A stretch of 61,961 nucleotides of DNA from Acidobacteriota bacterium (GTDB taxonomy: Bacteria; Acidobacteriota; Terriglobia; Bryobacterales; Bryobacteraceae): positions 1 to 61,961 of the forward strand of contig VFZO01000009.1 of NCBI GenBank assembly GCA_016871155.1, in the 5' to 3' direction. A model generated the notes under the pieces. It was not told the origin of the DNA and ran no database searches. It saw only the letters and a list, made by a program, of their open reading frames with translations. The translations under genes and the position numbers were made by a program. This document shows, piece after piece, positions 22,087-37,194 of this stretch (position 1 is the first letter of the stretch; each line of letters starts with the position of its first letter).

Positions 22087-22115
22087 CCGCTTAGGATTTG
22101 ATAGACTCTCGCCCA

Positions 22116-25100
22116 ATGCAAGGGTTTCTTTTGTTCCTTTTGTCCGTCCCGGTGGCCGCGCAGACGTTCCAGGCAACGCTCACCGGCCGGGTGCTCGACC
22201 CATCTGGCGCCGTCGTTCCCGCCGCTCGTGTGGAGACGACCAGCGCGGCCACCGGAGTGAAACAACGAACAGTCACCGGGCCGGACGGCGTCTACAACTT
22301 CCCGCTGCTGCCCCCAGGCCGCTATTCGTTGCAGGGCGTGGCGCCGGGCTTCGCCACGGTCGTCGTTGAGAATGTGATTCTCGAGGTCGGCTCCCGGACT
22401 GCGCTCGATATCGAGCTTCGCATCGACACAACTGGAACCAGCGTGCAAGTCACGGCCGACGCTGCGGCGTTGCAGATTAAGTCCGAGTCGGGCGAACGGT
22501 CCGATCTGATTACGAACCGCCAAATTCGCGATCTTGCCCTCAACGGGCGGAACATCCTCGATCTGATGAAGGTGATTCCGGGCGTGGTTTCCAACGTTTC
22601 CGGCCAGGTCTCCAACGACGGCGGAGTCCGCAATTTCAACATCAACGGTGCGCGCGGGACGCAGAAAGAAGTATCGATCGATGGTTCCTCAAACGTCATC
22701 GCCGGCGCGAATCAGCGCGTCCACGTGACCATCAACCCCGACGCGATTCAGGAGGTAAAAGTCCTCACATCGAACTATCAGGCCGAATACGGTAAAACCG
22801 CCGGCGGTTTCATTCAATACACAACCCGCTCGGGCGGAAAGGACTTTCACGCCGCCACGCGCTACTTTCGCCGGCACGATTCGATGAACGCCAACGACTT
22901 TTTCAGTAACGCGCGTGGATTGCCGCGCAGACTGTATCGGTATAACTACTCCGGCTATGATGTCTCCGGTCCGGTGATCCTTCCAGGCACCGGCTTCAAT
23001 CGCAATCGCGACAAGCTCTACTTTTTCTGGAATCAGGAGTTCTACCGGCAGCTCATACCGTCCTCACCCCGGACCGTTCGCGTCCCCACCGAGGCCGAGA
23101 AGAACGGCGATTTCTCGCGAACTACGGACGGCAACGGCAACCCGGTTTTCATTCGCGACCCGCTGACCAATCAGCCCTGCACCGCCGCCAACCGCGCCGG
23201 CTGCTTCCAGGGCAACATCATCCCCCGCTCGCGCCTATTCGCCGATGGGCAGCGCGTGCTCGGCATCTTTCCCGGCCCGAACGACTCGGTAGGCGGCAAC
23301 GTTTATAACTACAGCTCCCAGTTTTCCAATTCGACGCCGCGCCGCGAGGACGTTCTTCGCATCGATTGGAACCTCTCGTCGAAAACGCGCGTGGCCGGCC
23401 GGTATATTCAAAACTCCGAACGCACGGTGCAGCGCTACGGCGGCTGCAACAACATCGCCTACAACCTGCCGCTCTCCACGCTCGAGTCCACGCAGAGCCC
23501 GCGCAACTTCTCGCTGAACGTTGTGCACACGTTCAGCCCCACGCTGCTGAACGAATTCACCTACGCGCCCAGCCGGAGCCGGACCACCTGCGAACCGCAG
23601 GACGATAAGCTCCAGCGCGCGCCCTACGGCATTCAACTCCCGATGCTGTTCAATAACGCAGTCACAACGAAATTCCTCCCGTCTCTCGCGTTCGGGGGTA
23701 TCGCCAACCAGGCGTTCCCGTCTCTCGCCGCCGGCGCTCTGCCTGTTCAATCGGGAGACGCCAACGTCACCATCAGCAACAACCTCTCCAAGTTCATCGG
23801 CAAGCATTCCATCAAAACGGGATTCTACTATCAGCGCAACCGATTCCTGTTCACGCCGCGCAATGGCATCAACGGGGACATTAACTTTAACAACGATGTC
23901 AATAACCCGCTCAATGCCAACCATCCGTTCGCGAACGCGTTGCTGGGCGTGTACACACAGTTCTCGCAGGCCAATGAGATCGTCGACGGCCGCGTGATGT
24001 ACCACACGATCGAAGGCTTCGTGCAGGACACCTGGAAGGCGGCGCCGCGCTTGACGCTCGATCTCGGCCTTCGCATCTCGCACGTCGGCCCCAGCTATGA
24101 CGAACGGCTGCAGAGCAATGTGCTCCGGCCCGATATGTACGATCGCACCAAGGCCGTCCGCCTCTACACGCCCGTTCTTGGCGGCGGACAACAACGCGCG
24201 GCCGATCCCGCCAATCCCTCCGTCACTCTTCCGGCGGCCTTCGTGGGGCTCATCGTGCCGAACTCGGGCGACCCGTTCAACGGCATTACCTCCCCGCGCG
24301 AAGGCTATCCGCGCGGCGGCTTTGACGCGCGCCCGCCGCAGTGGGGCCCGCGCATCGGCTTTGCCTGGAATGTGTTTGGCGACAACAAGACGGTGGTCCG
24401 CGGCGGCTACGGCATCAGCTACGAACGCGTGCAGGCCAACGTAGTCCTTGGGCAGCTCAATACACCGCCGACAAATATCGTTCCGCGCCTGTTCTTCGGC
24501 AGCCTGAACGATCTGCGCAGCCAAAGCGGCACACTGGCGCCTTCCAACATCCAGGGCTTTCCGCGCGAAGGCAAGGTTCCCAACATCCATTCCTTCTCGC
24601 TTGGCGTGCAGCGGAACATCGGCAGCGGGACCGTCGTCGATATCGCCTACGTAGGGACGCTTTCGCGCCATCTTGTTCAGTCGCGCAATCTCAACACGAT
24701 CCCGTATTTCCGTACATTCGAACGCTCCGCGCAGGACCCGTCGCGGTTTGGCGGCACGGTCCCGGAGGTGGAGCCGAATCTGCCCGCCATCTATCGGGCC
24801 GCCGGATTCAATTTCTCCGGCGCCAACGCGCTGCCGCTGAATTTCCTGCGCCCATTTCCGGGCTTCGCGGAGGTCAACTACCGCGAGTTCAGCGGCTCCT
24901 CCAACTACCACTCGCTGCAGGTTGCCGCCTCGCGCCGGCTCTCGGCGGGCATCACCTTCCAGTTGGCCTACACCTTCTCCCGCGCCTTCGTTACAGGCGA
25001 CACCGATTTCGAAGGCAACCATCCGTACGATACCCGCGGCTTCGACTACGCCCTCGCCGAGTTCGACCGCGCCCACACGTTCGTCGCCAACTACGTCTAC

Positions 25101-25691
25101 GACGTCCCGCTCTTCCGCAAGTCGCGCTACTTCGGCGGCTGGCAGATCTCCGGCATTTCGCAGTTCTATACCGGCGAACCCTTCGAGCTCGGACTCGGTA
25201 TTCAAGGCGTGAATGCGGCGCAGCGGATCGTGGGCTCCTACAATTTGCCGGTCCGTCCTTTCCGCGTGGGCGGGCAGCCGGACACGGCCGGCGGACTGCG
25301 CATCAACCCGGATCAATTCGCCGTTCCGGGCATCGGAGAAATCGGCCCGTATCCGCGGATGTACCTGCGCAATCCGTGGTTCGTGAACCACGACCTTTCG
25401 ATCTTCAAAAACTTCCGTTTGGGCGAATCCGATGCGCGCAAACTGCAGCTTCGCATCGAGATGTTCAATTTTTTGAACTCCACGCAGTTCGCGGGGATCA
25501 ACGGCGGCACACAGGTTTCCACGTCCGCCGGGGCGATCGGCAACGCCGTCTTCAACAACTTCTCCGGCCTGCGCATCACTAACAATCTCCGCCAGTCCGG
25601 CTCCACACTTCCGCTTGGCCAGTTCTTCGGCGAGTACAATGCCGCCCGCGATCCGCGCATTATCCAACTCGCCGTCAAGGTCTACTTTTGA
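22116..25691 (+). CDS. Oar-like TonB-dependent receptor with carboxypeptidase-regulatory domain
   Basis: 1191 residues from ATG 22116. Order: signal peptide (MQGFLLFLLSVPVAAQ); carboxypeptidase-regulatory domain (TLTGRVLDPSGAVVPAARVE to PPGRYSLQGVAPGFA); plug domain (NRQIRDLALNGRNILDLMKV, DGSSNVIAGANQ, EVKVLTSNYQAEYGKTAGGF); then a long beta-barrel ending LAVKVYF with the terminal aromatic residue used for outer-membrane assembly. Such receptors import large substrates, often oligosaccharides or peptides, with TonB energy. No SusD partner is next to it. The region with repeated GGYGISYERV-like strands is normal for this family. Confidence 0.93.
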   Translation: MQGFLLFLLSVPVAAQTFQATLTGRVLDPSGAVVPAARVETTSAATGVKQRTVTGPDGVYNFPLLPPGRYSLQGVAPGFATVVVENVILEVGSRTALDIELRIDTTGTSVQVTADAAALQIKSESGERSDLITNRQIRDLALNGRNILDLMKVIPGVVSNVSGQVSNDGGVRNFNINGARGTQKEVSIDGSSNVIAGANQRVHVTINPDAIQEVKVLTSNYQAEYGKTAGGFIQYTTRSGGKDFHAATRYFRRHDSMNANDFFSNARGLPRRLYRYNYSGYDVSGPVILPGTGFNRNRDKLYFFWNQEFYRQLIPSSPRTVRVPTEAEKNGDFSRTTDGNGNPVFIRDPLTNQPCTAANRAGCFQGNIIPRSRLFADGQRVLGIFPGPNDSVGGNVYNYSSQFSNSTPRREDVLRIDWNLSSKTRVAGRYIQNSERTVQRYGGCNNIAYNLPLSTLESTQSPRNFSLNVVHTFSPTLLNEFTYAPSRSRTTCEPQDDKLQRAPYGIQLPMLFNNAVTTKFLPSLAFGGIANQAFPSLAAGALPVQSGDANVTISNNLSKFIGKHSIKTGFYYQRNRFLFTPRNGINGDINFNNDVNNPLNANHPFANALLGVYTQFSQANEIVDGRVMYHTIEGFVQDTWKAAPRLTLDLGLRISHVGPSYDERLQSNVLRPDMYDRTKAVRLYTPVLGGGQQRAADPANPSVTLPAAFVGLIVPNSGDPFNGITSPREGYPRGGFDARPPQWGPRIGFAWNVFGDNKTVVRGGYGISYERVQANVVLGQLNTPPTNIVPRLFFGSLNDLRSQSGTLAPSNIQGFPREGKVPNIHSFSLGVQRNIGSGTVVDIAYVGTLSRHLVQSRNLNTIPYFRTFERSAQDPSRFGGTVPEVEPNLPAIYRAAGFNFSGANALPLNFLRPFPGFAEVNYREFSGSSNYHSLQVAASRRLSAGITFQLAYTFSRAFVTGDTDFEGNHPYDTRGFDYALAEFDRAHTFVANYVYDVPLFRKSRYFGGWQISGISQFYTGEPFELGLGIQGVNAAQRIVGSYNLPVRPFRVGGQPDTAGGLRINPDQFAVPGIGEIGPYPRMYLRNPWFVNHDLSIFKNFRLGESDARKLQLRIEMFNFLNSTQFAGINGGTQVSTSAGAIGNAVFNNFSGLRITNNLRQSGSTLPLGQFFGEYNAARDPRIIQLAVKVYF

Positions 25692-25701
25692 TGGCGCGCG
25701 T

Positions 25702-26379
25702 TTAGGCGTCTTCCAGGTGCCCGTCGCGCATGCGCACGATGCGGTCGGCGAAAGCCGCCGCTTCCGGGTTATGCGTAATCATCAAAATCGTCTGGCCGAT
25801 TTTTCGGTTCAGATTCCGCAACAGGTCCAGCACCGCGTTGGAATTCTCCGTGTCCAAATTGCCGGTCGGCTCGTCGGCCAGCAGGATAGACGGATGATTC
25901 ACCACCGCGCGTGCGATGGCCACGCGCTGCTGCTCGCCTCCGCTCAGCTGCCTGGGTTTTCGGTCCAGTTTTCCGTCGATACCCAGCACGCGCAGCACCT
26001 CTTGAAATTGGGCGTCGAACGGGCCCTTGCGGTTGGCGATATCGCGAGCGATCTCAATGTTACCGCCGACCGTCAGCGTCGGAAGCAGATTGTATTTTTG
26101 GAACACAAAACCCACAGCGGTCTTGCGCAGGTTGGTGCGCTCCACATCGGAGAGATGCGAAAGGTCCTTGCCGTCGATCACGATACTGCCCGCCGCGGCC
26201 GGCGTTAACCCGCCCAGTATGTGGAAGAGCGTCGACTTTCCCGAGCCCGACGGCCCCACGACCGCCAGAAACTCCCCGCGTTTCACTGCAAGATCCACGC
26301 CGCGGAGCGCGTGCACATCCACCTCGCCGGAACGGAACGTCTTCCGCAATCCGCGAATTTCGATAATCGCGTCAGTCAT
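25702..26379 (-). CDS. ABC transporter ATP-binding protein (MacB/LolD type)
   Basis: 225 residues from ATG 26379, overlapping the permease stop by eight bases. Walker A GPSGSGKST (about residues 40-48), Q-loop QKYNLLPTLTV, signature LSGGEQQRVAIARA, Walker B ILLADEPTGNLD and the H-loop MITHNPE are all intact. The length and the ENxxVLDLLRxL text match the LolD/MacB/FtsE group that drives FtsX-fold permeases rather than importers. It works with the preceding permease in the inner membrane. No membrane-fusion (MacA) gene is next to it. Confidence 0.93.
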   Translation of the reverse strand: MTDAIIEIRGLRKTFRSGEVDVHALRGVDLAVKRGEFLAVVGPSGSGKSTLFHILGGLTPAAAGSIVIDGKDLSHLSDVERTNLRKTAVGFVFQKYNLLPTLTVGGNIEIARDIANRKGPFDAQFQEVLRVLGIDGKLDRKPRQLSGGEQQRVAIARAVVNHPSILLADEPTGNLDTENSNAVLDLLRNLNRKIGQTILMITHNPEAAAFADRIVRMRDGHLEDA

Positions 26380-27466
26380 AGGAGAGCGACTCCAGCGCAT
26401 CCTGCCGTGCCGCCTTCATGGCCGGATACAGAACACCAAGAACGGCGCCTAACATCGTTACGCCTGCGGCGATGGGCCACCAGGAATAGACGATTGACTG
26501 CGTCATCGACGCCGGAATAAACGTCGCCAGCAGCCATTTCGTACCGTAGCTCATCAGGATGCCGGCGACGCTTCCCAGCAGGGCGAGCAGCAACGTCTCC
26601 CGCAGCAGAATGCCGAGAACGTAGCCGGGAGAGGCGCCCAGCGCTTTCAGGATTCCGATTTCGCGGGTGCGCTCCAGGATGGCCGTGTACATCGCCAGGA
26701 AGACCACCAAGAAACCGAACAGCACCGAAAGGGTGACGACGACGCCGATGAACGCCTTCAATTCGGGTACGTTGTTCACGGAGAACTGCGACGCCAATTC
26801 GTCCATCGAATAGATCGGATAGTCGACCAGAGTCTTCTTGAATTCATCGATGACGGCTTGTGTGTGCGAAGAATCGTCGAGCTTCACGTAGATGACTGAG
26901 ACTTTGCCGGTGTTTGCCGTCATGTCCTGCAGCACCCGAATGGGCAGCATCATGCGCGTGAGCTTGCCCCCCCGGAAGATTCCGGAGACGATCCAATCCT
27001 TGTTCAGGATCTTGATCGTCGAGCCGACTTTCAGCTTTTTTTCCTTGGCGTAGTACTCATCGATAATCGCCTCTTGTGCCTCGCGAAAGGGCGCGCCGGA
27101 AATGTACTGAAACCCGCCGCTCATCGTCGCCAGCGTCTGATAATCCACTCCGTGCACGGTGCTGACGCCGCCAATGGGTTGGATGGCGACGCCGGTGGCC
27201 AGCTTCACGTGCTTCTGTTCCGACGCCCAAGTAACCAGTCTCTCGTTAATGCTCGGCGGCGTAATGCCGATGGCCGACGAGCCCGCGGGACGAATGATAA
27301 TGTCCGCGCCGACGCCGCGGGTGCGCGATTCCTGATCCGCGAGCATCCCCTCGCCGACACCGACCAGCGTGAGCATCATCGTCACGCCCAGCCCTATCGC
27401 CAACGAACTCAGCAACGTCCGGACCGGCCGGTGCTTCAGATTTTCCCAGACAAGCTGATAGACCAA
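26372..27466 (-). CDS. ABC transporter permease, FtsX/MacB family
   Basis: 364 residues. One N-terminal membrane helix (RTLLSSLAIGLGVTMMLTLV), a large extracytoplasmic domain (residues about 45-235), then three membrane helices with the family text AMYTAILERTREIGILKALG (coupling helix) and ASPGYVLGILLRETLLLAL. The start is a TTG at 27466; homologues begin in the same place. A TACAAT on the minus strand (27478-27473) stands only six bases upstream, which would make a nearly leaderless transcript. Substrate unknown; the family exports lipoproteins, peptides or macrolides, or transmits mechanical signals. Confidence 0.9.
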   Translation of the reverse strand: MVYQLVWENLKHRPVRTLLSSLAIGLGVTMMLTLVGVGEGMLADQESRTRGVGADIIIRPAGSSAIGITPPSINERLVTWASEQKHVKLATGVAIQPIGGVSTVHGVDYQTLATMSGGFQYISGAPFREAQEAIIDEYYAKEKKLKVGSTIKILNKDWIVSGIFRGGKLTRMMLPIRVLQDMTANTGKVSVIYVKLDDSSHTQAVIDEFKKTLVDYPIYSMDELASQFSVNNVPELKAFIGVVVTLSVLFGFLVVFLAMYTAILERTREIGILKALGASPGYVLGILLRETLLLALLGSVAGILMSYGTKWLLATFIPASMTQSIVYSWWPIAAGVTMLGAVLGVLYPAMKAARQDALESLSYD

Positions 27467-27470
27467 AACG

Positions 27471-28163
27471 TTATTGTAACCCGTCGTGGAAAAACTCCAG
27501 AACCCACGACGCGAACAGCGCGGTATCTAGCGGCTGGTCCAAGGTGGCCAGCGCGGCGTCGACGGCCGCGGGGCCGATACGCTCACGGCGGAACTCCAGC
27601 AGCGCCCGGGCATAGGCGGGTGAAAACTCGGGATGCCCCTGAATACCCAGCGATTTTCTTACGCGAATCATGGCCGCGTCGCAGTGCGCGTTCGAGGCGA
27701 GCACAACGCCGCCCGGCGGCAGCGTTTCCACCTGATCCTGGCAGCTCATCAACGCGCTGACGGCGGGTTGCGGCGGCCGCATCCAGGGCTCCTCCTTCGT
27801 CACCGCGAACCCGTGAACGCCGATGCCCCATCCCTTCGGGGACTTTGCCACGCGCCCGCCCAGCGCGTGTCCCAGCATCTGGTGGCCGAAACAGACGCCG
27901 AGGAACGGCGTTCCGGCGGCGTGGATCCGGCGCGTCAAATCGGCAAACGCTCGAATCCAGGCCTCGTCTTCATAGACGCTACGCCGGGAGCCGGTGGCGA
28001 CATAGGCGTCACACTCCTCCAACCGCGACGGGCCGCCGCCCTCAGTGAGATCGTAGATCCGCCATTCGCCGGGTAGCCACCGCGCGAACATCTCGTCGTA
28101 GTCGCCGCCGATGGAGCGGAACTCCGGAAGAACGTGATCGCATTGCAGCAGCCCCAATCTCAT
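27471..28163 (-). CDS. Class I glutamine amidotransferase-like hydrolase (candidate gamma-glutamyl amide hydrolase)
   Basis: 230 residues from ATG 28163, overlapping the aldehyde dehydrogenase stop as ATGA. The nucleophile is in GVCFGHQMLGHALGG and the catalytic His/Glu in IQGHPEF. There is no synthetase domain and no partner synthetase nearby, so it probably acts as a hydrolase. Known relatives include PuuD, which frees gamma-aminobutyrate from its gamma-glutamyl amide. Next to a glutamine synthetase-like ligase, SDR and aldehyde dehydrogenase, the best inferred role is splitting the final gamma-glutamyl amide to glutamate and a small amino acid such as glycine. Generic annotation would be GMP synthase-like amidotransferase. 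Confidence 0.85.
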   Translation of the reverse strand: MRLGLLQCDHVLPEFRSIGGDYDEMFARWLPGEWRIYDLTEGGGPSRLEECDAYVATGSRRSVYEDEAWIRAFADLTRRIHAAGTPFLGVCFGHQMLGHALGGRVAKSPKGWGIGVHGFAVTKEEPWMRPPQPAVSALMSCQDQVETLPPGGVVLASNAHCDAAMIRVRKSLGIQGHPEFSPAYARALLEFRRERIGPAAVDAALATLDQPLDTALFASWVLEFFHDGLQ

Positions 28164-29530
28164 ATCGTTCGCAGGTGAAAGGACTTCAATCGGGTCAACT
28201 GGCCGTAGCCGAGTTCGGAGAGCGAACAGCCACGCCCGGTATCCTTCACACCCGTCCACGCTAGGGCGGGGTCCAGGTAGTCACACCGGTTCATGAACCA
28301 CGTTCCAGTAGAGATGCGGTTGCCGATGCTTTCGGCCGCCGCGATGTCCTGCGTCCAGATTGCCGCCGTCAATCCGTAGGCGGAGTCGTTCATTAGCCCA
28401 ACGGCCTCATCGTCATTGGCGGCCTTCATGATGCCAACGACGGGGCCGAACGTCTCCTCGGTCATCACGCGCATGGTGTGGTTGACGTTGGTGAGTATAC
28501 GCGGCGCCATGTACGGCGTACCGGGCTGGTCCGGAATATCGACGTGTACGTGCGCCCCTTGCGCCTGGGCCTCCGCCACCTGCGCGCGAACAAAATCCGC
28601 CGCGGCCGTGCGAACCATGGGTCCCAGCGTAGTGGCTGGCTCCATCGGGTTGCCGAGCGCGTACTGGCCGGTGAGCGCGATCGCGCGTTCGACAAACTCG
28701 TCGTAAACCGGAGCCTGCGCGTAGATGCGTTCGATGCCGCAGCAGCTCTGGCCGGAGTTGAACATCGCGCCGTCAACGAGGTTCTCCACCGCGTCCGCCA
28801 GATTCGCATCCGAGCGAACGTAGGCCGGATCCTTTCCGCCCAACTCCAGTGTGGCGCCGATGAAGCGATTGGCCGCGGCGCGCTGCACCGCGTGGCCGCC
28901 CGCCACCGAACCCGTGAACACGACGTGATCCACACGCGGGTCACCAATCACGCGCTCCACATCCGCGTGGCCCAGGTGCAGGAACTGAAAGACACCTTCC
29001 GGCAGGCCCGCCTGTTGGAACGCCTGCGCGAAGCGTTCGGCGCACAGCGGTGTCTGCGCCGAATGTTTCAACACTACGGCGTTTCCGGCAACGATGGCCG
29101 GCACCACGGAGTTCACAGCCGTCAGATACGGATAGTTCCAGGGCGCAATGGTGAACACCACGCCGAGCGGGGTTTTGCGAATGAACCGGGTGAAGCCGGC
29201 GCGCGGCGCCACGGCATGATCTTGAAGCGCGGCCGGCGCGGCGTCGATCATAAAGCGCGCGCGTTCCGCAAAGCCGCGCCGGATCTCGTTCGGCGTGTAG
29301 CGAACCGGCCGGCCCATCTGCCACGTTAGCTCTTCTCCGATTGCATCGGCCTTCGCTTCCATGGCCTCTACAAAGCGCAACGCCGTCGCCATCCGTTCCG
29401 CCAGCGGCTCCTGGGCCCAGCGCTTTTGTGCCTCGGCCGCGCGGCCCAAAGCCGCCTCGATTTCGGTGCCGCCGGCGAGAGGGCGCTCGACAAAAACGCG
29501 TCCGTCAATCGGGGAGATCGTCTTCTGCAT
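28160..29530 (-). CDS. NAD(P)-dependent aldehyde dehydrogenase
   Basis: 456 residues. Catalytic glutamate in TLELGGKDPAYV (about residue 230), catalytic cysteine in FNSGQSCCGIERIY (about 265), the cofactor-binding APWNYPYLTAVNSVVPA and the C-terminal EETFGPVVGIM are present. The family resembles succinate-semialdehyde and gamma-glutamyl-aminobutyraldehyde dehydrogenases of the short (about 455 aa) type. In this operon it would oxidise the gamma-glutamylated aldehyde made by the SDR. Six bases separate it from the SDR gene. Confidence 0.93.
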   Translation of the reverse strand: MQKTISPIDGRVFVERPLAGGTEIEAALGRAAEAQKRWAQEPLAERMATALRFVEAMEAKADAIGEELTWQMGRPVRYTPNEIRRGFAERARFMIDAAPAALQDHAVAPRAGFTRFIRKTPLGVVFTIAPWNYPYLTAVNSVVPAIVAGNAVVLKHSAQTPLCAERFAQAFQQAGLPEGVFQFLHLGHADVERVIGDPRVDHVVFTGSVAGGHAVQRAAANRFIGATLELGGKDPAYVRSDANLADAVENLVDGAMFNSGQSCCGIERIYAQAPVYDEFVERAIALTGQYALGNPMEPATTLGPMVRTAAADFVRAQVAEAQAQGAHVHVDIPDQPGTPYMAPRILTNVNHTMRVMTEETFGPVVGIMKAANDDEAVGLMNDSAYGLTAAIWTQDIAAAESIGNRISTGTWFMNRCDYLDPALAWTGVKDTGRGCSLSELGYGQLTRLKSFHLRTI

Positions 29531-29536
29531 GGCGTC

Positions 29537-30295
29537 CTAGAGCGGCGTGGTGTAGGCCGCGGTGATGCCGCCATCCACCAGAAATTCGCTGCCGGTAACG
29601 AACGACGATTCGTCGGAAGCTAGGTACAGCGCGGCGTAGGCGATCTCCTTGGCCTGGCCGAAGCGGCCCATCGGAATGTGAACCAGCCGCCGCTGCTTTT
29701 TCTCTTCGGTGTTGAGGTACTTCATCAACAGCTCGGTAAACAGCGGCCCCGGGCATAGCGCGTTCACGCGAATGTTCTCGCGCGCATGGATGGCCGCCAA
29801 CTCGCGGCTCATCGAAAGCACGGCGCCCTTGCTGGCCGTATAGGCGAGTTGCGGCGTCGCGGCGCCGAGAATCGCCACAAACGACGCGGTGTTTACGATG
29901 GATCCGCCGCCCGCCCGGCGCAGTGCCGGCACTCCGTATTTGCAGCCCAGAAAGACACCCTTTACGTTGATGGCAAAGGTCAGGTCCCAAACGTCCTCGG
30001 TCGTCGATGTGGCGTCGTCATCATCGGCGTGCGAGATGCCGGCGTTGTTGAACAGAATATTTAACCGGCCGTACTCCTTCTCCGCGGCGGCCACCATCGC
30101 CTCGCAATCGGCGGCTTTCGAAACGTCCGCCTTCACAGCCCATCCGCCGCAGGCGGCAGCCACGGCCTTCGCGGCGTCTTCGTTGACGTCCACGGCGACG
30201 ACCTTCGCGCCTTCCGCCGCGAATAGCAGCGCGCTCTCCTTCCCGATCCCACTGCCCGCGCCGGTAATCAGCGCGACCTTATCCTTCAAACGCAT
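29537..30295 (-). CDS. Short-chain dehydrogenase/reductase
   Basis: 252 residues, classical SDR. Cofactor motif TGAGSGIGKESA, NNAG at about residue 88, catalytic Ser in VNTASFVA and Tyr/Lys in AYTASKG (about 157-161), and the C-terminal GSEFLVDGGITAAY. An aspartate at the end of the second strand (VVAVDVNED) indicates NAD rather than NADP. Set between the ligase and the aldehyde dehydrogenase, it could oxidise a gamma-glutamylated alcohol to the aldehyde. Three bases separate it from the ligase gene. Confidence 0.92.
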   Translation of the reverse strand: MRLKDKVALITGAGSGIGKESALLFAAEGAKVVAVDVNEDAAKAVAAACGGWAVKADVSKAADCEAMVAAAEKEYGRLNILFNNAGISHADDDDATSTTEDVWDLTFAINVKGVFLGCKYGVPALRRAGGGSIVNTASFVAILGAATPQLAYTASKGAVLSMSRELAAIHARENIRVNALCPGPLFTELLMKYLNTEEKKQRRLVHIPMGRFGQAKEIAYAALYLASDESSFVTGSEFLVDGGITAAYTTPL

Positions 30296-30298
30296 GCT

Positions 30299-31618
30299 TC
30301 AGATCCTTTCGAAATAACGTTGGCGCTCCCAATCGGTGACAGCGCACTCAAATTGTTTTTGCTCGTTGCGGTAGAAGTGCACGTAGTGCTCATGCACGTC
30401 CGCGCCCAGAGTGGACTTCGCGAACTCCGACCCGGCGAACAGATCCACCGCATGTTCCAGCGTGTACGAGACACGCGGCAGATTGCGCGCGGCGTAAACG
30501 TCTCCCTCAAATACGGGCGGCGGTTCGATCCTGTTTGTCACGCCATCCAATCCGGAGGCCACGGCCGCGGCGAACGCCAGGTACGGATTCGCGTCCGCCC
30601 CGGGGATGCGGCATTCAATGCGCAGGCTGGGCCCCTCGCCCACCACGCGGAATCCGGCCGTGCGGTTGTCCTTGCTCCAAGCAAGGCGAGTCGGCGCCCA
30701 GGACATATCCTCAAAGCGCTTGTACGAATTGATCGTTGGCGCGTAGAACACCATGAACTCGGGCGCGTGGGCGATCCAGCCGCCGAGGAACCAGCGAAAC
30801 ACATCGGCGTCCGTAAACGCCGCGAGGCTTAGGTGCAGGTGGCAGCTCGACCCGGCCTGCCCTTTCGCGGGTTTGGCCATGAAGGTAACAGCGATTCCGC
30901 ACTGCTCGGCTATCTCCTTCACGCACTGTTTCAGAAGCACATGATTGTCGGCCATCTCCAACACGCCGGAGTAGCGGACATTCACTTCATGCTGGCCAAG
31001 GCCCCATTCGCCCTTCGAATTCTCCACCGGAATGCCCGACGCCTTCAAATGGCGGCGAACACGCTGCGTGAAAAACTCCTCGCGCGTGCCTTGCAGCAGG
31101 TTGTAGTCTTCCAGATACCAGCTCAACGGTTCCAGATCGCGATACCCGTTCTTCGCCGCGTCGCGATACGTGGCGCGGTAGCCGTAGTATTCCAGTTCCG
31201 ACGCGCCCATCGGCACATGCCCCAGCGTTTGCGCCCGCGCCAGTTGCCGCTTCAGAATGTTCCGCGGAGCCTGCTCTACATGATCGGCGTCGCAGTGCAC
31301 GAACGCCGTCTTGTCCAGCCACGTCAGGATGCGTAGCGTCTTCAGGTCCGGCACAAGATGGAAGTCGCCGTAGCCAAGCTCCCAGTTCGCGAAAGAGAAG
31401 CCGGGCACTGGGTTCATCTCTGCGTCGGTGGTCAGCAGGTAATTGCAGGCGTGCGTCCCGTCCTTGGCGGCGTGCCGCCAAAAGAACTCGGCATCGAAGC
31501 GTTTGCCCATCAGCCGCCCGTAGTGATCGGTGAAGCCGGCGACGACGGTGTCAACGGCGCCGTCCTCCACCGCGCGGGCGAGTTCTTCCAGGGAGAGGAG
31601 CTTAGTGTTCTTGGACAT
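30299..31618 (-). CDS. Glutamine synthetase-like gamma-glutamyl ligase (GlnA4/PuuA type)
   Basis: 439 residues from ATG 31618, overlapping the permease stop by 17 bases. It has the glutamine-synthetase fold: beta-grasp N-domain with FTDHYGRLMGKRFDA, the catalytic GASELEYYGYR, GLGQHEVNVRYSGVLEMADN (metal/glutamate site), the ATP-site FMAKPAKGQAGSSCHLHLSL and RIECRIPGADANPYLAFAA. True ammonia-fixing enzymes read MPKPL..NGSGMH at the equivalent place; the AKPAKGQAGSSCHLH form is that of the gamma-glutamyl-amine ligases. It would join glutamate to an amine with ATP. The neighbouring ethanolamine-type permease points to ethanolamine. Confidence 0.9.
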   Translation of the reverse strand: MSKNTKLLSLEELARAVEDGAVDTVVAGFTDHYGRLMGKRFDAEFFWRHAAKDGTHACNYLLTTDAEMNPVPGFSFANWELGYGDFHLVPDLKTLRILTWLDKTAFVHCDADHVEQAPRNILKRQLARAQTLGHVPMGASELEYYGYRATYRDAAKNGYRDLEPLSWYLEDYNLLQGTREEFFTQRVRRHLKASGIPVENSKGEWGLGQHEVNVRYSGVLEMADNHVLLKQCVKEIAEQCGIAVTFMAKPAKGQAGSSCHLHLSLAAFTDADVFRWFLGGWIAHAPEFMVFYAPTINSYKRFEDMSWAPTRLAWSKDNRTAGFRVVGEGPSLRIECRIPGADANPYLAFAAAVASGLDGVTNRIEPPPVFEGDVYAARNLPRVSYTLEHAVDLFAGSEFAKSTLGADVHEHYVHFYRNEQKQFECAVTDWERQRYFERI

Positions 31619-32912
31619 GGGACCGGCGATATAAGAAGTAGTATGCAAGCATCACGGCGATAAACGCCACCGTGCCGAAGACGCCGGGCCGGAAGGACTC
31701 GACGGCGAACGTGGCGGCCAGGCACACAAACGCCAGCGCAATGCCTGTGTACGCTCCCGCGCGGCCGAGGGGGCTCACGTAGGGCCGCTCCATCGCGCGG
31801 CCCTTCAGTGTGCAGTAAGAAAGCAGCACCAGGATATACGATACGAGCGCTCCGAAGACCGCCATGTTCAATAGCGCGGCGCCCACGCTGGTGGCGTACT
31901 GTTGCGCCAGGAAACACAAAATCAGTCCGATCGCTCCGCCCGCGATCAGCGCAACGTGCGGGGTGTAGCGGTTGTTTAACCGCATCAGCGCGGCCGGCAG
32001 AAACCCGGCGCGGCTCAACGCGAAAAGCAGGCGTCCATAGGCATAGACGATCGAGTGAAAGCTCGCCACCAGTCCCGTGAGCGAAATGATCGAGAGTACG
32101 ATCGACGTGACGCTGCTTGCGTAGACGGCTCGGAAACCCGCCTCCAGCGGAGCGGCCGATTCGCCGATCCCCTGTGCGCCGGGCCCGACGCCGGAATTCA
32201 GTACGAGGGTCCCAAGCGAGAACGCCAGCAATGTGGCCATGCCCCATTTCAGGGCGCGCGGCATATCTCTCGCTACGTCGTGACTCTCCTCGGCCGAGAG
32301 CGGCAACTGCTCGATCGCCAGGTAAAACCACACGGCATACGGCATGGCGGCGAACACGCCGTACCAGCCTTTCGACGGTACGTTCAACGCCAGTTCCCAG
32401 CGGAAATGCGGCAGCGCGCCGGCGTAGAAAATCAACAGCACGAGGGCGGCCAGCGCCGTGATGAGCATCGACACGCGAAACGTCAGTGCCGCGCCGGCCA
32501 CGTTGATGCCTACGAAAAAGACGTAGAACGCGACCCACCAGATCCAATCCGCCGTGCCAGGCACGATCGCTTTCATGTAGCCCGCGATGCCCGCCACAAT
32601 CACGGCCGGCGTCGTGACGTACTCGATCGCATCGGTAAGGCCGTTCAGGAACGCCCGGTCTTTTCCGAACGCCGCGCGCGTGAAGTTGTAAAAGCCGCCG
32701 GCATCGGGTAACGCGGCCGAGAGTTCGGCGATGGAAAACACCAGGCACACGTACATCACCGCGATCAGCAGCGTGGCCAGGAAAAGCCCTTCAAATCCGC
32801 CGGCCAGAAGTCCGGTCTGCCAGCCGAAGTAGTTGCCGGAGATCACGCCGCCTACGCCGAGCGCCCATAGTTGCACCCATCCGGCGGTCTTCTTCAGTTG
32901 CTCGGCAGCCAT
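31602..32912 (-). CDS. APC-superfamily permease, ethanolamine permease (Eat)-like
   Basis: 436 residues with about 12 membrane segments. The N-terminal text GGVISGNYFGWQTGLLAGGF, GLFLATLLIAVMYVCLVFSI and AELSAALPDAGGFYNFTRAA is what I know from ethanolamine/amine permeases of the amino acid-polyamine-organocation family. The start codon ATG 32912 lies inside a perfect 19-nt palindrome (32909-32927) and no clear Shine-Dalgarno sequence is outside it. An ATG 13 bases upstream is in another frame. It is 20 bases after the ADOP permease gene and overlaps the ligase gene, so it is the entry gene of the proposed catabolic operon. Confidence 0.88.
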   Translation of the reverse strand: MAAEQLKKTAGWVQLWALGVGGVISGNYFGWQTGLLAGGFEGLFLATLLIAVMYVCLVFSIAELSAALPDAGGFYNFTRAAFGKDRAFLNGLTDAIEYVTTPAVIVAGIAGYMKAIVPGTADWIWWVAFYVFFVGINVAGAALTFRVSMLITALAALVLLIFYAGALPHFRWELALNVPSKGWYGVFAAMPYAVWFYLAIEQLPLSAEESHDVARDMPRALKWGMATLLAFSLGTLVLNSGVGPGAQGIGESAAPLEAGFRAVYASSVTSIVLSIISLTGLVASFHSIVYAYGRLLFALSRAGFLPAALMRLNNRYTPHVALIAGGAIGLILCFLAQQYATSVGAALLNMAVFGALVSYILVLLSYCTLKGRAMERPYVSPLGRAGAYTGIALAFVCLAATFAVESFRPGVFGTVAFIAVMLAYYFLYRRSHVQEH

Positions 32913-32927
32913 GCGAGACTCGCATGG
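32909..32927. promoter_or_regulatory. Perfect 19-nt palindrome over the permease start codon
   Basis: CCATGCGAGACTCGCATGG: two perfect 9-base arms round a single base. On the coding (minus) strand it spans from 15 bases before the ATG to the ATG itself plus one base. It fits a homodimeric regulator's operator, and the RNA could equally fold over the start codon. The two readings are not mutually exclusive; I have no sequence evidence for which regulator would bind. Confidence 0.6.
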
Positions 32928-32932
32928 TAGCA

Positions 32933-35485
32933 CTACAACTCGCGCAGCGCCTGCACGGGTTCCACACGCGACGCTCGCCGCGCCGGCAGCCAGGCTGCCG
33001 CGAATGCCGCCAGCAGCAGCACCGCCACAGCCGCTAGCAAGGGGCCCGGGGCCGACGGCTTCACCTCGAATAGCAGTGTTCGCAGCCAATCGGAAACCGC
33101 CGCCGCGCCGGCCAGCCCCAGCGCCACGCCGGCCAACGTCCACGCTCCCGCCTGCCGCAGCACCATAGTTCGAATCGCACCCGCCGTCGCGCCCAGAGCG
33201 ATTCGTATTCCAATCTCGCCCGTACGCTGCGCCGTCAACAGCGCGATCACGCCGTAGAGGCCGATGGCCGCCAGCAACAGACCAGTAACGGCAAAGCCTC
33301 CCAGCAGCAGCGTTCGGAAGCGCGGCCGCTCCCGGTGTTTCCCGACGCGTTCGTCGAGCGACTCCACCTCCACCACCAGGCGCGGATCGAGGGTTCGGAA
33401 CACCTCTCTTGCAAACGGGATCGTGCGGGAGTCGGCCTCGATCAGCGCCGAGAACGACCGGCGGCCACTGCTGAGCATGTACGCCTCCGGGTCCGAGGGC
33501 TCCGTCAATCCGGCGTTGCGAACGCCGGCTACAACACCCACCACTTCGCATTCGGGCTCGCCGTCCGAGGTTCGAACGCGATGGCCCACGGGATCGCCGC
33601 CTGGGAACAGCCGCGCCGCCAACGATTCGGAAATCAGCATAACGTTCGCGCCGTCACGCCGGTCCGCCTCCGTGAAGCCGCGCCCCTTCCGCACGGGAAT
33701 TTGCAACATCGAAAAGTAGTTCGGCGTCACGAAGCGCACCGCCACCATGCCGCCGGTTTGCTGGCCGCGATAGCGGGACACGCCGTCAATCTTCAGCATC
33801 GAAAAGATCACCGCCATCTGCCGGCTGAGCGGCGGCAGCGAGTCCGCGATCGCGACGCGTTGCACACCGGGCAGCGCGGCCAGCGCGGCCTCCGCCCGCG
33901 TCCAAAATTGGTGCGGCGCGTCTTCCGCACCGTATCGCGCGCGCGGCAGCTGCGCATGCACGGCGTAGAGTCCGGTGGTCGAAATGCCAACCGGCACGTT
34001 CGACAGGTTCCAGAGACTCCGCAACAACAGCCCAGCGCCGCACAGCAGCATCAGCGACATCGCAATCTGCGCCACCACCAGCGCCGGCCGCAGCCACTCC
34101 CGGCGCGGCGCGGAGGCGCGCGTTCCCGCCAATCCGGCCACCGAGGCGGGCCGCAGTGCCGGTGCCATCCCGAACAGCAGCGCCGCGAACAGTGACACCG
34201 CCGCTGCCGTGGCCGCCACGCGCCAATCCACCGTCGCTTCCGCGAGGCGCGCGATTCCCTCGGGAGCCGCCTGGCGGATCAAGGCCAAAAGCCCCACGGC
34301 CAAGCCGACACCCAACACGCACCCCAACAGGCCGATCACTGCGCTTTCGGTCAGTGCTTGGCGGGCCAGGCGGCCCGCGCTGGCGCCGATTGCTGCGCGC
34401 ACGGCCAACTCTCTCCGCCGCGCCGCCGCCCGCGCCAACAGCAGATTCGCCACGTTGGCCACCGCGATCAGCAACACCATCGCCACCGCTCCCAGCAGCA
34501 GCAGTGCCGCCGTCCGGCTGTCGCGTACCTGGCGGTCGCGCAGTGGATGAATCACCAGCTTCACTTCTTTGACGAATCCTCCCGGAACCGTCTTGAGTGA
34601 CGCCTGAAACAGCGGCTCCAAACGCGCGCGCGCCTCCACAATCGAGACTCCCGGGTTGAGCCGCGCGAAGGCAGTCAAGAGCATCCGGTTCGGGGATGAC
34701 AGCGTAGTTGCGTTCAGGCGCATCGGCTGCAAAATGTCTACGTGCGCCAGCGACGGCATCTCGAAGTTCTCCGGCAAAACGCCGGCCACCACGCTTCGCA
34801 CTCCATCCACGTCGAGGGATTTGCCGATCGCGCCGCCTCCGCCGAACCGGCGCTGCCATAGGCCGTGCGAGATCAGCACGACCGGCGGCGCGCCCTCCTC
34901 CATGTCGGCCGGGCGCAGGTCGCGGCCCGCCGCCGGCCCATAACCGAAAAGCGTTAGAAAACTGGACTCCACGCGTGCGCATCGCAGCTTCGCCGGATTC
35001 TCTTCCGACAGAGTGCAATCGGTGGCCCCGGCCGTGACGGTCATGCCGGAGAACGCCGTTTGACCCTTCGACCAAATGGCGAAATCGTTGTCCAGGACGA
35101 ACTCCGCGCCGGCGGTGATGGGCGCCGTCATGCCGAACCAGACGAGCTCCCGCTCGTTGGAGTAGGGCAGCGGCCGGAAGAGGATCCGGTCCACGAAGCT
35201 GAACACCGCCGTCGACGCGCCGATGCCGATGGTCAACGCGGCCAGCGCGGTCAACGTGAAGCCGGGCGATTTCCGCAACCCGCGCAGCGCATAACGGAGA
35301 TCCTGCCCGGCCTGCTCCAGCCAAACGGGCACCGTAACCGCGCGCACCGCCTCGTTGATGCGCCCGCGATTTCCAAAGGCCCGCTCCGCCGCTCGCCGCG
35401 CCTCGGCCGGCGTCATTCCTGCGCGAATGTTCTCCTCCGCGCGCATCTCGATATGCGATTCCATCTCCTCGCGCCAATCGCTCAT
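32933..35485 (-). CDS. ADOP-family duplicated FtsX-like permease
   Basis: 850 residues from ATG 35485, overlapping the PadR stop as ATGA. A cytoplasmic N-terminal segment (MSDWREEMESHIEMRAEENI, AGMTPAEARRAAERAFGN) is typical of acidobacterial duplicated orphan permeases. Two FtsX/MacB modules follow: residues about 70-400 (SPGFTLTALAALTIGIGAST start, ARRRELAVRAAIGASAGRLA coupling) and about 430-850 (RPALVVAQIAMSLMLLCGAG, TAQRTGEIGIRIALGATAGA, PARRASRVEPVQALREL). Each has a large periplasmic domain. No ATP-binding gene is adjacent on this side, which is why the family is called orphan; the LolD-type ATPase at the far end of the same run could serve it. Confidence 0.93.
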   Translation of the reverse strand: MSDWREEMESHIEMRAEENIRAGMTPAEARRAAERAFGNRGRINEAVRAVTVPVWLEQAGQDLRYALRGLRKSPGFTLTALAALTIGIGASTAVFSFVDRILFRPLPYSNERELVWFGMTAPITAGAEFVLDNDFAIWSKGQTAFSGMTVTAGATDCTLSEENPAKLRCARVESSFLTLFGYGPAAGRDLRPADMEEGAPPVVLISHGLWQRRFGGGGAIGKSLDVDGVRSVVAGVLPENFEMPSLAHVDILQPMRLNATTLSSPNRMLLTAFARLNPGVSIVEARARLEPLFQASLKTVPGGFVKEVKLVIHPLRDRQVRDSRTAALLLLGAVAMVLLIAVANVANLLLARAAARRRELAVRAAIGASAGRLARQALTESAVIGLLGCVLGVGLAVGLLALIRQAAPEGIARLAEATVDWRVAATAAAVSLFAALLFGMAPALRPASVAGLAGTRASAPRREWLRPALVVAQIAMSLMLLCGAGLLLRSLWNLSNVPVGISTTGLYAVHAQLPRARYGAEDAPHQFWTRAEAALAALPGVQRVAIADSLPPLSRQMAVIFSMLKIDGVSRYRGQQTGGMVAVRFVTPNYFSMLQIPVRKGRGFTEADRRDGANVMLISESLAARLFPGGDPVGHRVRTSDGEPECEVVGVVAGVRNAGLTEPSDPEAYMLSSGRRSFSALIEADSRTIPFAREVFRTLDPRLVVEVESLDERVGKHRERPRFRTLLLGGFAVTGLLLAAIGLYGVIALLTAQRTGEIGIRIALGATAGAIRTMVLRQAGAWTLAGVALGLAGAAAVSDWLRTLLFEVKPSAPGPLLAAVAVLLLAAFAAAWLPARRASRVEPVQALREL

Positions 35486-35787
35486 GCGAACCTCATCAGC
35501 CGGGCCATTCCTTTCGTCACCGACGCCCACTGCTCCCCGGCCTTGGCGAGCCTTTTGCGGCCTGCCGGCGTCAACTTGTAGAAACGCGCCTTGCGGCCCG
35601 CGGGCGTGGTGCCCCATTCGGCCGTCAATACGCCTTCCTTGTCCAGCCGGTGCAGCGCCGGATACAGAGAACCCTCCTCCACCGCCAGCAAACCGCCCGA
35701 AGCTTCCTGAATATGCAGGGTGATGCCGAACCCATGATTCGGGCCGTTCTCGAGCGATTTCAAAATCAACAGTTCCAAGGGCGCCAT
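35482..35787 (-). CDS. PadR-family transcriptional regulator
   Basis: 101 residues. Winged-helix start LELLILKSLENGPNHGFGIT, the EEGSLYPALHRLDKEGVLTA recognition/wing region with AEWG, and a short C-terminal helix (KRLAKAGEQWASVTKGMARL) match the compact PadR type that precedes ADOP permeases in Acidobacteria. Probably a repressor of its own operon, released by a small hydrophobic molecule. A CCCTAG-CGGC-CTAGGG dyad lies 14 bases upstream of the start. Confidence 0.93.
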   Translation of the reverse strand: MAPLELLILKSLENGPNHGFGITLHIQEASGGLLAVEEGSLYPALHRLDKEGVLTAEWGTTPAGRKARFYKLTPAGRKRLAKAGEQWASVTKGMARLMRFA

Positions 35788-35800
35788 CTCTAGTTATCTA

Positions 35801-35816
35801 CCCTAGCGGCCTAGGG
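35801..35816. promoter_or_regulatory. CCCTAGCGGCCTAGGG dyad, candidate PadR operator
   Basis: Two perfect 6-base arms with a 4-base centre, between the divergent padR (start 35787) and SDR (start 35862) genes. On the minus strand a TAGATAACTAG stretch follows, which could hold the -10 element, so a bound repressor would block the PadR-ADOP promoter. Confidence 0.45.
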
Positions 35817-35861
35817 ATACAAAGTCAACCGGTCACCCGCGATATACTGCGTTGTTTACAT

Positions 35862-36638
35862 ATGGTCAAGAACTTTTTCGATCTCACAGGTAAAGTGGCC
35901 GTCATCATGGGCGGCACCTCCGGCATTGGCGCGATGCTGGCCCAGGGCCTGGCGGAAGCCGGCGCGGACGTCGTTCCCGCCGGCCGCCGCGAAAGTGAGC
36001 TGAACGCGGTGTGCGACAAGATCTCCGCGCTCGGCCGCCGCACGCTTCGCAAGACCGCGGACGTGCAAAATCGCGAATCGATCGACGCGCTCCGCGACGC
36101 CGTGCTCGGCGAACTAGGCCGCGTCGACATTCTGCTGAACGCCGCCGGCATCACATTTCGTAAGCCGACCCAAGACGTCACCGAGGCCGATTGGAACCGG
36201 CTGATGGACATCAATGTGACCGGCACGCTGCGGGCCTGCCAGTCTTTCTACGAAGCGCTCAAAGCCACCGGCGCCGGGCGCATCGTCAATATCGCGTCGC
36301 TTAGCTCCTACGTCGGCCTGCTGGAGGTCTCGGCATATGGAACCTCCAAGGCAGCCGTTCTGCAGCTGACAAGGCAACTCGCCGTCGAATGGTCGCGTCA
36401 CGGAGTCAACGTCAATGCCATCGCGCCGGGCGTGTTCCGTACCGAGCTCAACGCGGCTCTTCTTGATGGCACGCCGCGCGGCCAGGAGTTTCTGTGGCGC
36501 ACGCCGCTCGGCCGCTTCGGCCAGCGGGAGGAGTTGATCGGCGCGGCCCTGCTGTTGGCCTCGCCCGCGGCCAGCTACATCACAGGACAGTGCATTGCCG
36601 TGGACGGCGGGTTCCTCGCCAGCGGTGTCAACCAGTAG
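35862..36638 (+). CDS. SDR-family oxidoreductase (gluconate 5-dehydrogenase/KduD-like)
   Basis: 258 residues. GGTSGIGAMLAQGLAE cofactor loop, NAAGITFRKP, the serine in VNIASLSSYVG and the YGTSK catalytic pair, ending YITGQCIAVDGGFLASGVNQ. The FFDLTGKVAVIMGGTSGIG opening and the RKPTQDVTEADWNRLMDINV stretch are like sugar-acid dehydrogenases (2-deoxy-D-gluconate 3-dehydrogenase, gluconate 5-dehydrogenase), though the exact substrate is not certain. It is divergent from PadR and one base from the next gene. Confidence 0.88.
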   Translation: MVKNFFDLTGKVAVIMGGTSGIGAMLAQGLAEAGADVVPAGRRESELNAVCDKISALGRRTLRKTADVQNRESIDALRDAVLGELGRVDILLNAAGITFRKPTQDVTEADWNRLMDINVTGTLRACQSFYEALKATGAGRIVNIASLSSYVGLLEVSAYGTSKAAVLQLTRQLAVEWSRHGVNVNAIAPGVFRTELNAALLDGTPRGQEFLWRTPLGRFGQREELIGAALLLASPAASYITGQCIAVDGGFLASGVNQ

Positions 36639-36639
36639 C

Positions 36640-37161
36640 GTGCCAGCGGCCGAAGCGTACGCGGTGTTGTCGGCAACGCCCGCGGCGTTGCGGGCGCTGC
36701 TGAATGGCCTGCCGCATTCCATGCTCGAATCGACGGAGGCTCCCGGGACCTGGAGTCCTTTCCAAGTGCTGCAACATCTCGTGTGGGCCGAGGTGGACGA
36801 CTGGCTCCCGCGCGTGCGAATGATCCAATCCGGTTCCGACGAACCGTTCCGCCCCTTCGTGCGCGACGAGAGCTTTCATCGCTACGCCAACTGGCCGTTG
36901 GCGCGCCTGCTCGACGAGTTCGGCCAGCTGCGCGCGGAGAATCTGGAGAGCGTGAACCTCCTCTCGCTCACGCCGGAACAACTGGCCGCGCAGGGCCGGC
37001 ACCCGGAATTCGGCCCGGTAACGCTTGGGCAACTGGTGGCGACCTGGGCCGCGCACGATCTGAGTCACATCCATCAGATCTCCCGGATTCTCACCAAAGA
37101 TATGGGCCGTCACGTAGGCCCTTGGCGGAAATATTTCAGCTTGCTTCGCGAGGAGCGTTGA
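36640..37161 (+). CDS. DinB-like (mycothiol/bacillithiol-transferase fold) protein
   Basis: 173 residues from a GTG at 36640, one base after the SDR stop. A four-helix bundle with the three histidines expected for the metal site: the first in FQVLQHLVWAE (about residue 48), the other two in WAAHDLSHIHQISRIL (about 143-149). Known family members are metal-dependent thiol-S-transferases or of unknown role; the substrate here cannot be told. Confidence 0.82.
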   Translation: MPAAEAYAVLSATPAALRALLNGLPHSMLESTEAPGTWSPFQVLQHLVWAEVDDWLPRVRMIQSGSDEPFRPFVRDESFHRYANWPLARLLDEFGQLRAENLESVNLLSLTPEQLAAQGRHPEFGPVTLGQLVATWAAHDLSHIHQISRILTKDMGRHVGPWRKYFSLLREER

Positions 37162-37194
37162 GCTTCTCCCGGAAAGAACCCGCACGCCGCGCCC

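Follow-up and report, generated by a model that had tools for sequence, protein, structure and literature searches.

In Streptomyces, GlnA4 makes gamma-glutamylethanolamide (Krysenko et al, 2019; PMC6529630). The sections of that paper on the gene cluster describe a short-chain dehydrogenase, an aldehyde dehydrogenase, glnA4, a transporter and a glutamine amidotransferase, and propose a route to glutamate and glycine in which the later steps are predictions there too. The Streptomyces ethanolamine route is repeated in the relevant passage of a 2022 review (PMC9397018). In Phaeobacter, published work on the ethanolamine locus reports higher levels of four of its proteins with phosphorylethanolamine, namely the ligase, the hydrolase and the two dehydrogenases (PMC10132767). 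Here, we describe a locus of an Acidobacteriota bacterium in which, we are reasonably confident, five genes form a catabolic cassette for ethanolamine via gamma-glutamylation, the flanking transporter sets being neighbours.

Layout of the locus and described systems

The window, a stretch of 61,961 nucleotides, is one contig of a 7.2 Mb genome of 577 contigs (99.87% complete, 6.5% contaminated). Its nearest named relatives are acidobacterial MAGs, Bryobacterales and Sulfopaludibacter among them, as found by the pattern search that also underlies the named loci discussed below and that detects close relatives only. Between positions 25702 and 35787, the minus strand carries nine genes. Re-reading their boundaries in the sequence confirmed the run described by the initial annotation, with gaps of at most 20 bases and overlaps of 4, 17, 4 and 8, and family scans agreed with the kind of gene it had named in each case:

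35482..35787, minus strand: PadR regulator of the padR_acidobact type (TIGR03433, above cut-off); partner and neighbour of ADOP, action on the cassette putative
32933..35485, minus strand: ADOP duplicated permease (TIGR03434, above cut-off); overlaps PadR by 4 bases; neighbour
31602..32912, minus strand: APC-family ethanolamine-type permease, 436 aa, cassette gene 1 (TIGR00908, E 1e-103, below cut-off); gap of 20 after ADOP
30299..31618, minus strand: GS-fold gamma-glutamyl amine ligase, 439 aa, cassette gene 2 (PF00120, E 3e-85); overlaps the permease by 17
29537..30295, minus strand: NAD-type SDR, 252 aa, putative gamma-glutamylethanolamide dehydrogenase, cassette gene 3 (PF13561); gap of 3
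28160..29530, minus strand: aldehyde dehydrogenase (ALDH), 456 aa, putative gamma-glutamyl-aminoacetaldehyde dehydrogenase, cassette gene 4 (PF00171, E 1e-119); gap of 6
27471..28163, minus strand: class-I GATase-fold hydrolase, 230 aa, putative gamma-glutamylglycine hydrolase, cassette gene 5 (PF00117); overlaps ALDH by 4
26372..27466, minus strand: MacB/FtsX-type permease with a TTG start (PF02687 and PF12704); gap of 4 after the GATase; neighbour
25702..26379, minus strand: ABC ATPase (PF00005), its start overlapping the MacB-type permease gene by 8; neighbour

For ADOP, the permease, the ligase and the GATase, the stretches used in the Pfam and NCBIfam scans were extended upstream by a few codons. 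The sequence itself shows which genes and families are present, the motifs of the active sites, the recurrence of the cassette and the grouping of the ligase. No RNA elements were found at gathering score in 25000–36600, and the promoter and terminator scan returned 1 and 7 matches, respectively, neither above shuffles (the promoter match lies inside padR, with a shuffle mean of 1.5). A foreign origin by base composition was considered and rejected, the GC content being 59–69% across 22000–38000 with no step at the cassette. On the opposite strand, a second SDR gene (35862–36638, plus) lies 74 bases past the PadR start, and its product is 40% identical to the cassette SDR.

The cassette resembles the Streptomyces GlnA4 cluster (SCO1610–SCO1615) and its homologous clusters in the five gene kinds and in the proposed steps, as far as the published description of those clusters goes. 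According to the same description, a putative ethanolamine transporter is present in homologous clusters and absent in S. coelicolor itself, and the Streptomyces regulator is EpuRI, whereas the window cassette has no comparable gene. The Phaeobacter MED193 locus (ETAGA, GETADH, GAADDH, GGAH and EtoVWX), in the portion of the study that presents it, has the ligase, alcohol, aldehyde and hydrolase steps of the cassette together with a TRAP transporter instead of an APC-family permease (PMC10132767). At a locus with the Phaeobacter layout (L062), the alcohol dehydrogenase is of the iron-containing kind and the hydrolase of the N-formylglutamate-amidohydrolase type, where the window has an SDR and a GATase. 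With the E. coli Puu pathway the cassette has in common the logic of gamma-glutamylation and the ligase and aldehyde dehydrogenase families; Puu, however, employs the oxidase PuuB and the hydrolase PuuD, in contrast to the SDR and the different GATase subfamily of the window. The Rv2857c–Rv2860c set of M. tuberculosis presumably resembles the cassette as well.

Genes that recur with the ligase

A close ligase, at least 61% identical, is present in 21 of the 150 family genomes, the window genome included, and we compared the nine window proteins with the surroundings of the ligase in the other 20 by tblastn. The SDR was found at 13 of these loci and a matching ALDH at the same 13, a close GATase at nine and the permease at eight, seven of the latter being among the 13 with SDR and ALDH; several loci are cut by contig ends, which partly accounts for the 12 of the 20 in which the permease was unseen and the 11 in which a close hydrolase was. 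Among 21 named loci, a set that overlaps the first (nine contigs are apparently common to both), the corresponding counts were 17 for the SDR, 17 for the ALDH, eight for the GATase and five for the permease. Near the ligase, no match to PadR, ADOP or the MacB permease was detected at any of the 20 family loci or 21 named loci, although the PadR protein is short, so a diverged PadR could escape detection. The ABC query gave partial matches only (30–36% identity), about 4–5 kb upstream, in 6/21 named and 3/20 family loci. Ten chosen flanking ORFs of L034, L036, L043 and L044 contained no regulator families. Judged by what recurs together in the relatives examined, the functional unit appears to be the middle five genes (permease, ligase, SDR, ALDH and hydrolase), and not the nine-gene, PadR-headed run that the initial annotation had taken for a single pathway unit.

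Some loci hold only part of the cassette. At L089, the permease and the ligase are present, with no SDR in the 1.1 kb remaining after the ligase; L037 has the ligase and ALDH with the SDR absent, L094 is a contig that ends at the ligase, and at L091 and likewise L049 the ligase stands alone, the other cassette genes not being nearby. In four of the 20 family loci, an iron-containing alcohol dehydrogenase (41–44%) occupies the slot of the SDR, accompanied by an ALDH (42–48%) and a distant GATase (27–31%). This mixed version of the pathway was seen at L090, L092, L093 and L095, two of which (L090 and L095) probably recur among the named loci as L048 and L052. Four alphaproteobacterial plasmid loci combine an iron-containing alcohol dehydrogenase with an N-formylglutamate-amidohydrolase-type hydrolase. 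The presence of unrelated alcohol dehydrogenases in the same slot argues for an alcohol-oxidising step.

Ligase matches were found in 114 plasmid records, of which 11 were examined. A plasmid of Allomeiothermus silvanus (L055, 8980–12549) carries a ligase, an SDR and an ALDH of the cassette type (65, 76 and 64%, respectively). MAGs of Chloroflexi, the Thermus/Deinococcus group and Cytophagales also contain close ligases, for which either lateral transfer or misbinning would account.

The ligase and its companion enzymes

The ligase carries AKPAKGQAGSSCHLH and matches PF00120, in agreement with the GS fold originally assigned to it. In E. coli GlnA numbering, it has P in place of D50, A in place of N264 and W in place of E327, and it keeps the six metal ligands E129, E131, E212, E220, H269 and E357, as well as H271 and R344. 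As the roles of these residues are set out in the corresponding part of Krysenko et al (2019; PMC6529630), D50 and E327 belong to the ammonia site and N264 binds glutamate. Of the five glutamate residues, the ligase thus retains four (E131, G265, R321 and R359) and has A in place of the remaining one, N264. A GlnA-like protein of the same genome (L001) keeps D50, N264 and E327. Against family models, the ligase scored far below the cut-offs of GlnA (205.3 of 429.15 bits), of type III and of gamma-glutamylputrescine synthetase (184 of 650 bits, E 4e-54). By these residue and model-score tests, the window ligase is not a glutamine synthetase. Its best solved relatives are 11zs and 5dm3, the latter presumably from Chromohalobacter.

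GlnA4 is likewise described as lacking D50 and E327, with E and F at positions 264 and 327, respectively (PMC6529630); the A and W of the window ligase differ from these. The actinobacterial ligases L057 (Embleya) and L060 (Nonomuraea), which are 43–44% identical to the window ligase and served as stand-ins for S. coelicolor GlnA4, absent from our tree, also have E and F at these positions. Both have SDR and ALDH neighbours and PuuD-like genes, and their loci gave better matches to PuuC- and PuuD-like queries than to the window ALDH and hydrolase. Alphaproteobacterial rows have F at 327 but A or V at 264, so the E and F feature does not define the wider pathway. The window ligase lacks D50 and E327 and keeps the metal and ATP residues; as the same holds for PuuA and IpuC, this combination does not single out a GlnA4-type pathway. 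IpuC, the gamma-glutamylisopropylamide synthetase of Paenarthrobacter aurescens TC1, is a GS-fold amine ligase 38% identical to that of the window, and the two share P, A and W at 50, 264 and 327. The AWDANY motif, derived from a published glnA4 primer, occurred in no aligned row, the stand-ins included. GS position 179 was aligned differently between two alignments and was not used in the residue comparison.

In a tree of 43 ligases, the window ligase fell in a set of 29 together with actinobacterial, alphaproteobacterial and Thermomicrobium ligases. With all rows included, the split between this set and IpuC, the family paralogs, PuuA and GlnA had a support of 97/99, the placement of PuuA being unsure because of its long branch, as a warning of the tree tool indicated; after removal of the long branches, the ligase clade was split from IpuC at 88/90. 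L051, L053, L054 and the second ligase-like gene of L058 were left out of the first tree, and PuuA, L003, L058 and L052 additionally out of the second. The clade also takes in alphaproteobacterial loci, including L062. At these support values, the window ligase appears to belong with the GlnA4-like ligases and the ethanolamine ligases of Roseobacter type, and to be separate from IpuC. We also observed a distant GS-like family of predicted proteins (L025–L033), 33–38% identical and present in 21 of the 150 family genomes, nine of which are represented in the trees. Eight of these nine rows keep D50, and all nine have P in place of N264 and W in place of E327.

With regard to the other cassette proteins, the permease scored 347.4 of 381.75 bits against the ethanolamine permease model TIGR00908, under the curated cut-off, and is 53% identical to a Thermomicrobium protein annotated eat. 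A Mycobacterium riyadhense locus with an eat-annotated permease had no ligase among its 12 listed genes. The SDR has a Ser, a Tyr-x-x-x-Lys, a glycine-rich motif and an Asp after beta-2, which we take to be the marks of an NAD-type SDR. Its identity is 54% with the SDR of L057 and 57% with that of L060, against 42% for the next best SDR encoded in the same genome. The Glu and Cys motifs of the ALDH are kept in the five relatives aligned, and the Cys and His-Pro-Glu motifs of the hydrolase in the eight aligned. Among solved structures, the hydrolase matches gamma-glutamyl peptidase 1 best (9k7i, E 2.5e-17), with GMP synthases and further amidotransferases ranking next; the hydrolase gave no alignment with the Sinorhizobium N-formylglutamate amidohydrolase.

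Substrate, flanking genes and meaning

The conversion of ethanolamine to glutamate and glycine is the best reading of these data, with ethanolamine as the likely substrate, and the order of steps that we infer is as follows. The permease would import ethanolamine, and the GS-fold ligase would use ATP to join it to glutamate, giving gamma-glutamylethanolamide. The SDR would oxidise this alcohol to the aldehyde, from which the ALDH would form gamma-glutamylglycine, and the GATase-fold hydrolase would release glutamate and glycine. As glutamate would be regained, the cell would gain glycine plus reducing power overall. The route put forward in the initial annotation is supported as gamma-glutamylation of an amino alcohol, most likely ethanolamine, because of the eat-type permease, the place of the ligase in the tree, the alcohol and aldehyde dehydrogenases, the gamma-glutamyl-peptidase-like hydrolase and the lack of an amine oxidase in the nine-gene run; PadR, ADOP and MacB/ABC are not supported as parts of it. 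EutB was not found in the window genome, in a search in which the E. coli control was positive. On an Aminobacter plasmid (L065, 6205–15375), the genes next to a ligase cassette are bhcRABC, which belong to the beta-hydroxyaspartate cycle. bhcABC uses glycine, and its place beside the Aminobacter cassette would fit glycine as the product.

The same chemistry might instead serve a different amino alcohol or a short amine (3-aminopropanol, alaninol or isopropylamine, for example), its final intermediate being a gamma-glutamyl amino acid. The residues shared with IpuC and the permease score below the ethanolamine cut-off are consistent with such a substrate, as is the ALDH, which scored best, though in each case under the cut-off, against models of semialdehyde, aminobutyraldehyde and betaine-aldehyde dehydrogenases. 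However, IpuC lies outside the ligase clade, the P450, ferredoxin and ferredoxin reductase of its locus are absent at the window cassette, and ethanolamine-type permeases adjoin several of these ligases, Thermomicrobium included, and we regard a different amine as unlikely. For a Puu-type putrescine route, one could point to the ligase, aldehyde dehydrogenase and hydrolase logic common to both pathways, to the match with the gamma-glutamylputrescine synthetase model and to the unsure, long-branched position of PuuA in the tree. Yet family scans of the nine genes detected no amine oxidase, PuuB had no match in the 20 family loci and the hydrolase barely aligns to PuuD (best piece E 0.02). Putrescine is therefore extremely improbable, and the earlier view that ethanolamine fits better is supported.

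A further possibility is that the nine genes form one PadR-controlled operon linking ADOP and MacB/ABC efflux to amine breakdown, as gaps of at most 20 bases, the one between ADOP and the permease included, and several overlaps throughout might suggest. Against this, PadR and ADOP are a repeated pair: each of the 22 PadR genes over cut-off in the window genome has an ADOP match immediately downstream, in the same orientation, and neither gene was found by the cassettes of relatives, as noted above for MacB too. In the one genus compared, the MacB permease was matched in 18 of 19 genomes and the ligase in 16 of 19 (13 of the 13 of good quality), and the two were on different contigs in all 15 other congeneric genomes holding both, many of these assemblies being fragmented and three having about 40 to 50 contigs. 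We consider a single nine-gene operon distinctly unlikely. Given the repeated PadR–ADOP pair and the location of MacB on other contigs in congeners, the run looks like a juxtaposition, in which PadR–ADOP (upstream) and MacB/ABC (downstream) appear to be neighbours placed beside the cassette in this lineage, and the link of the route to ADOP/ABC permeases drawn in the initial annotation is not supported. A role for PadR as pathway regulator was unsupported for the same reasons, and MacB/ABC as part of the pathway was rejected on location. Any transcript read-through from ADOP into the cassette would be putative. It is very unlikely that the cassette has come under the PadR–ADOP transcription unit, an envelope-transporter signal thereby governing amine breakdown, and that, in addition, the P/A/W pocket of the ligase serves a non-ethanolamine amino alcohol.

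ADOP matches in the window genome numbered 68, fragments included, and we observed an expansion in this one genome to 34 ADOP permeases over cut-off and 22 PadR–ADOP pairs. A conserved partner of the window ADOP in the genus was also sought and rejected: matches at E 1e-250 (56–58% identity) occurred in 2/18 other genomes, on contigs other than that of the ligase, in a genus-wide comparison that, for 8 of the 19 genomes, covered just 50 scored candidates.

The five-gene cassette that we favour for ethanolamine is probably an ordinary, well-formed member of the pathway already proposed for Streptomyces and marine Roseobacters. The suggestion that a route with an SDR step had not been described fails, since the cluster section of Krysenko et al (2019; PMC6529630) proposed the same steps for Streptomyces. 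A limited search of open-licence papers found no acidobacterial account of ethanolamine glutamylation. The locus at 25702–35787 also illustrates that tight gene spacing alone did not mark the functional unit. Read in this way, the cassette would extend the gamma-glutamylation route for ethanolamine to Acidobacteriota, a route whose alcohol-oxidising and hydrolytic steps appear to be filled by different enzyme families in different loci.
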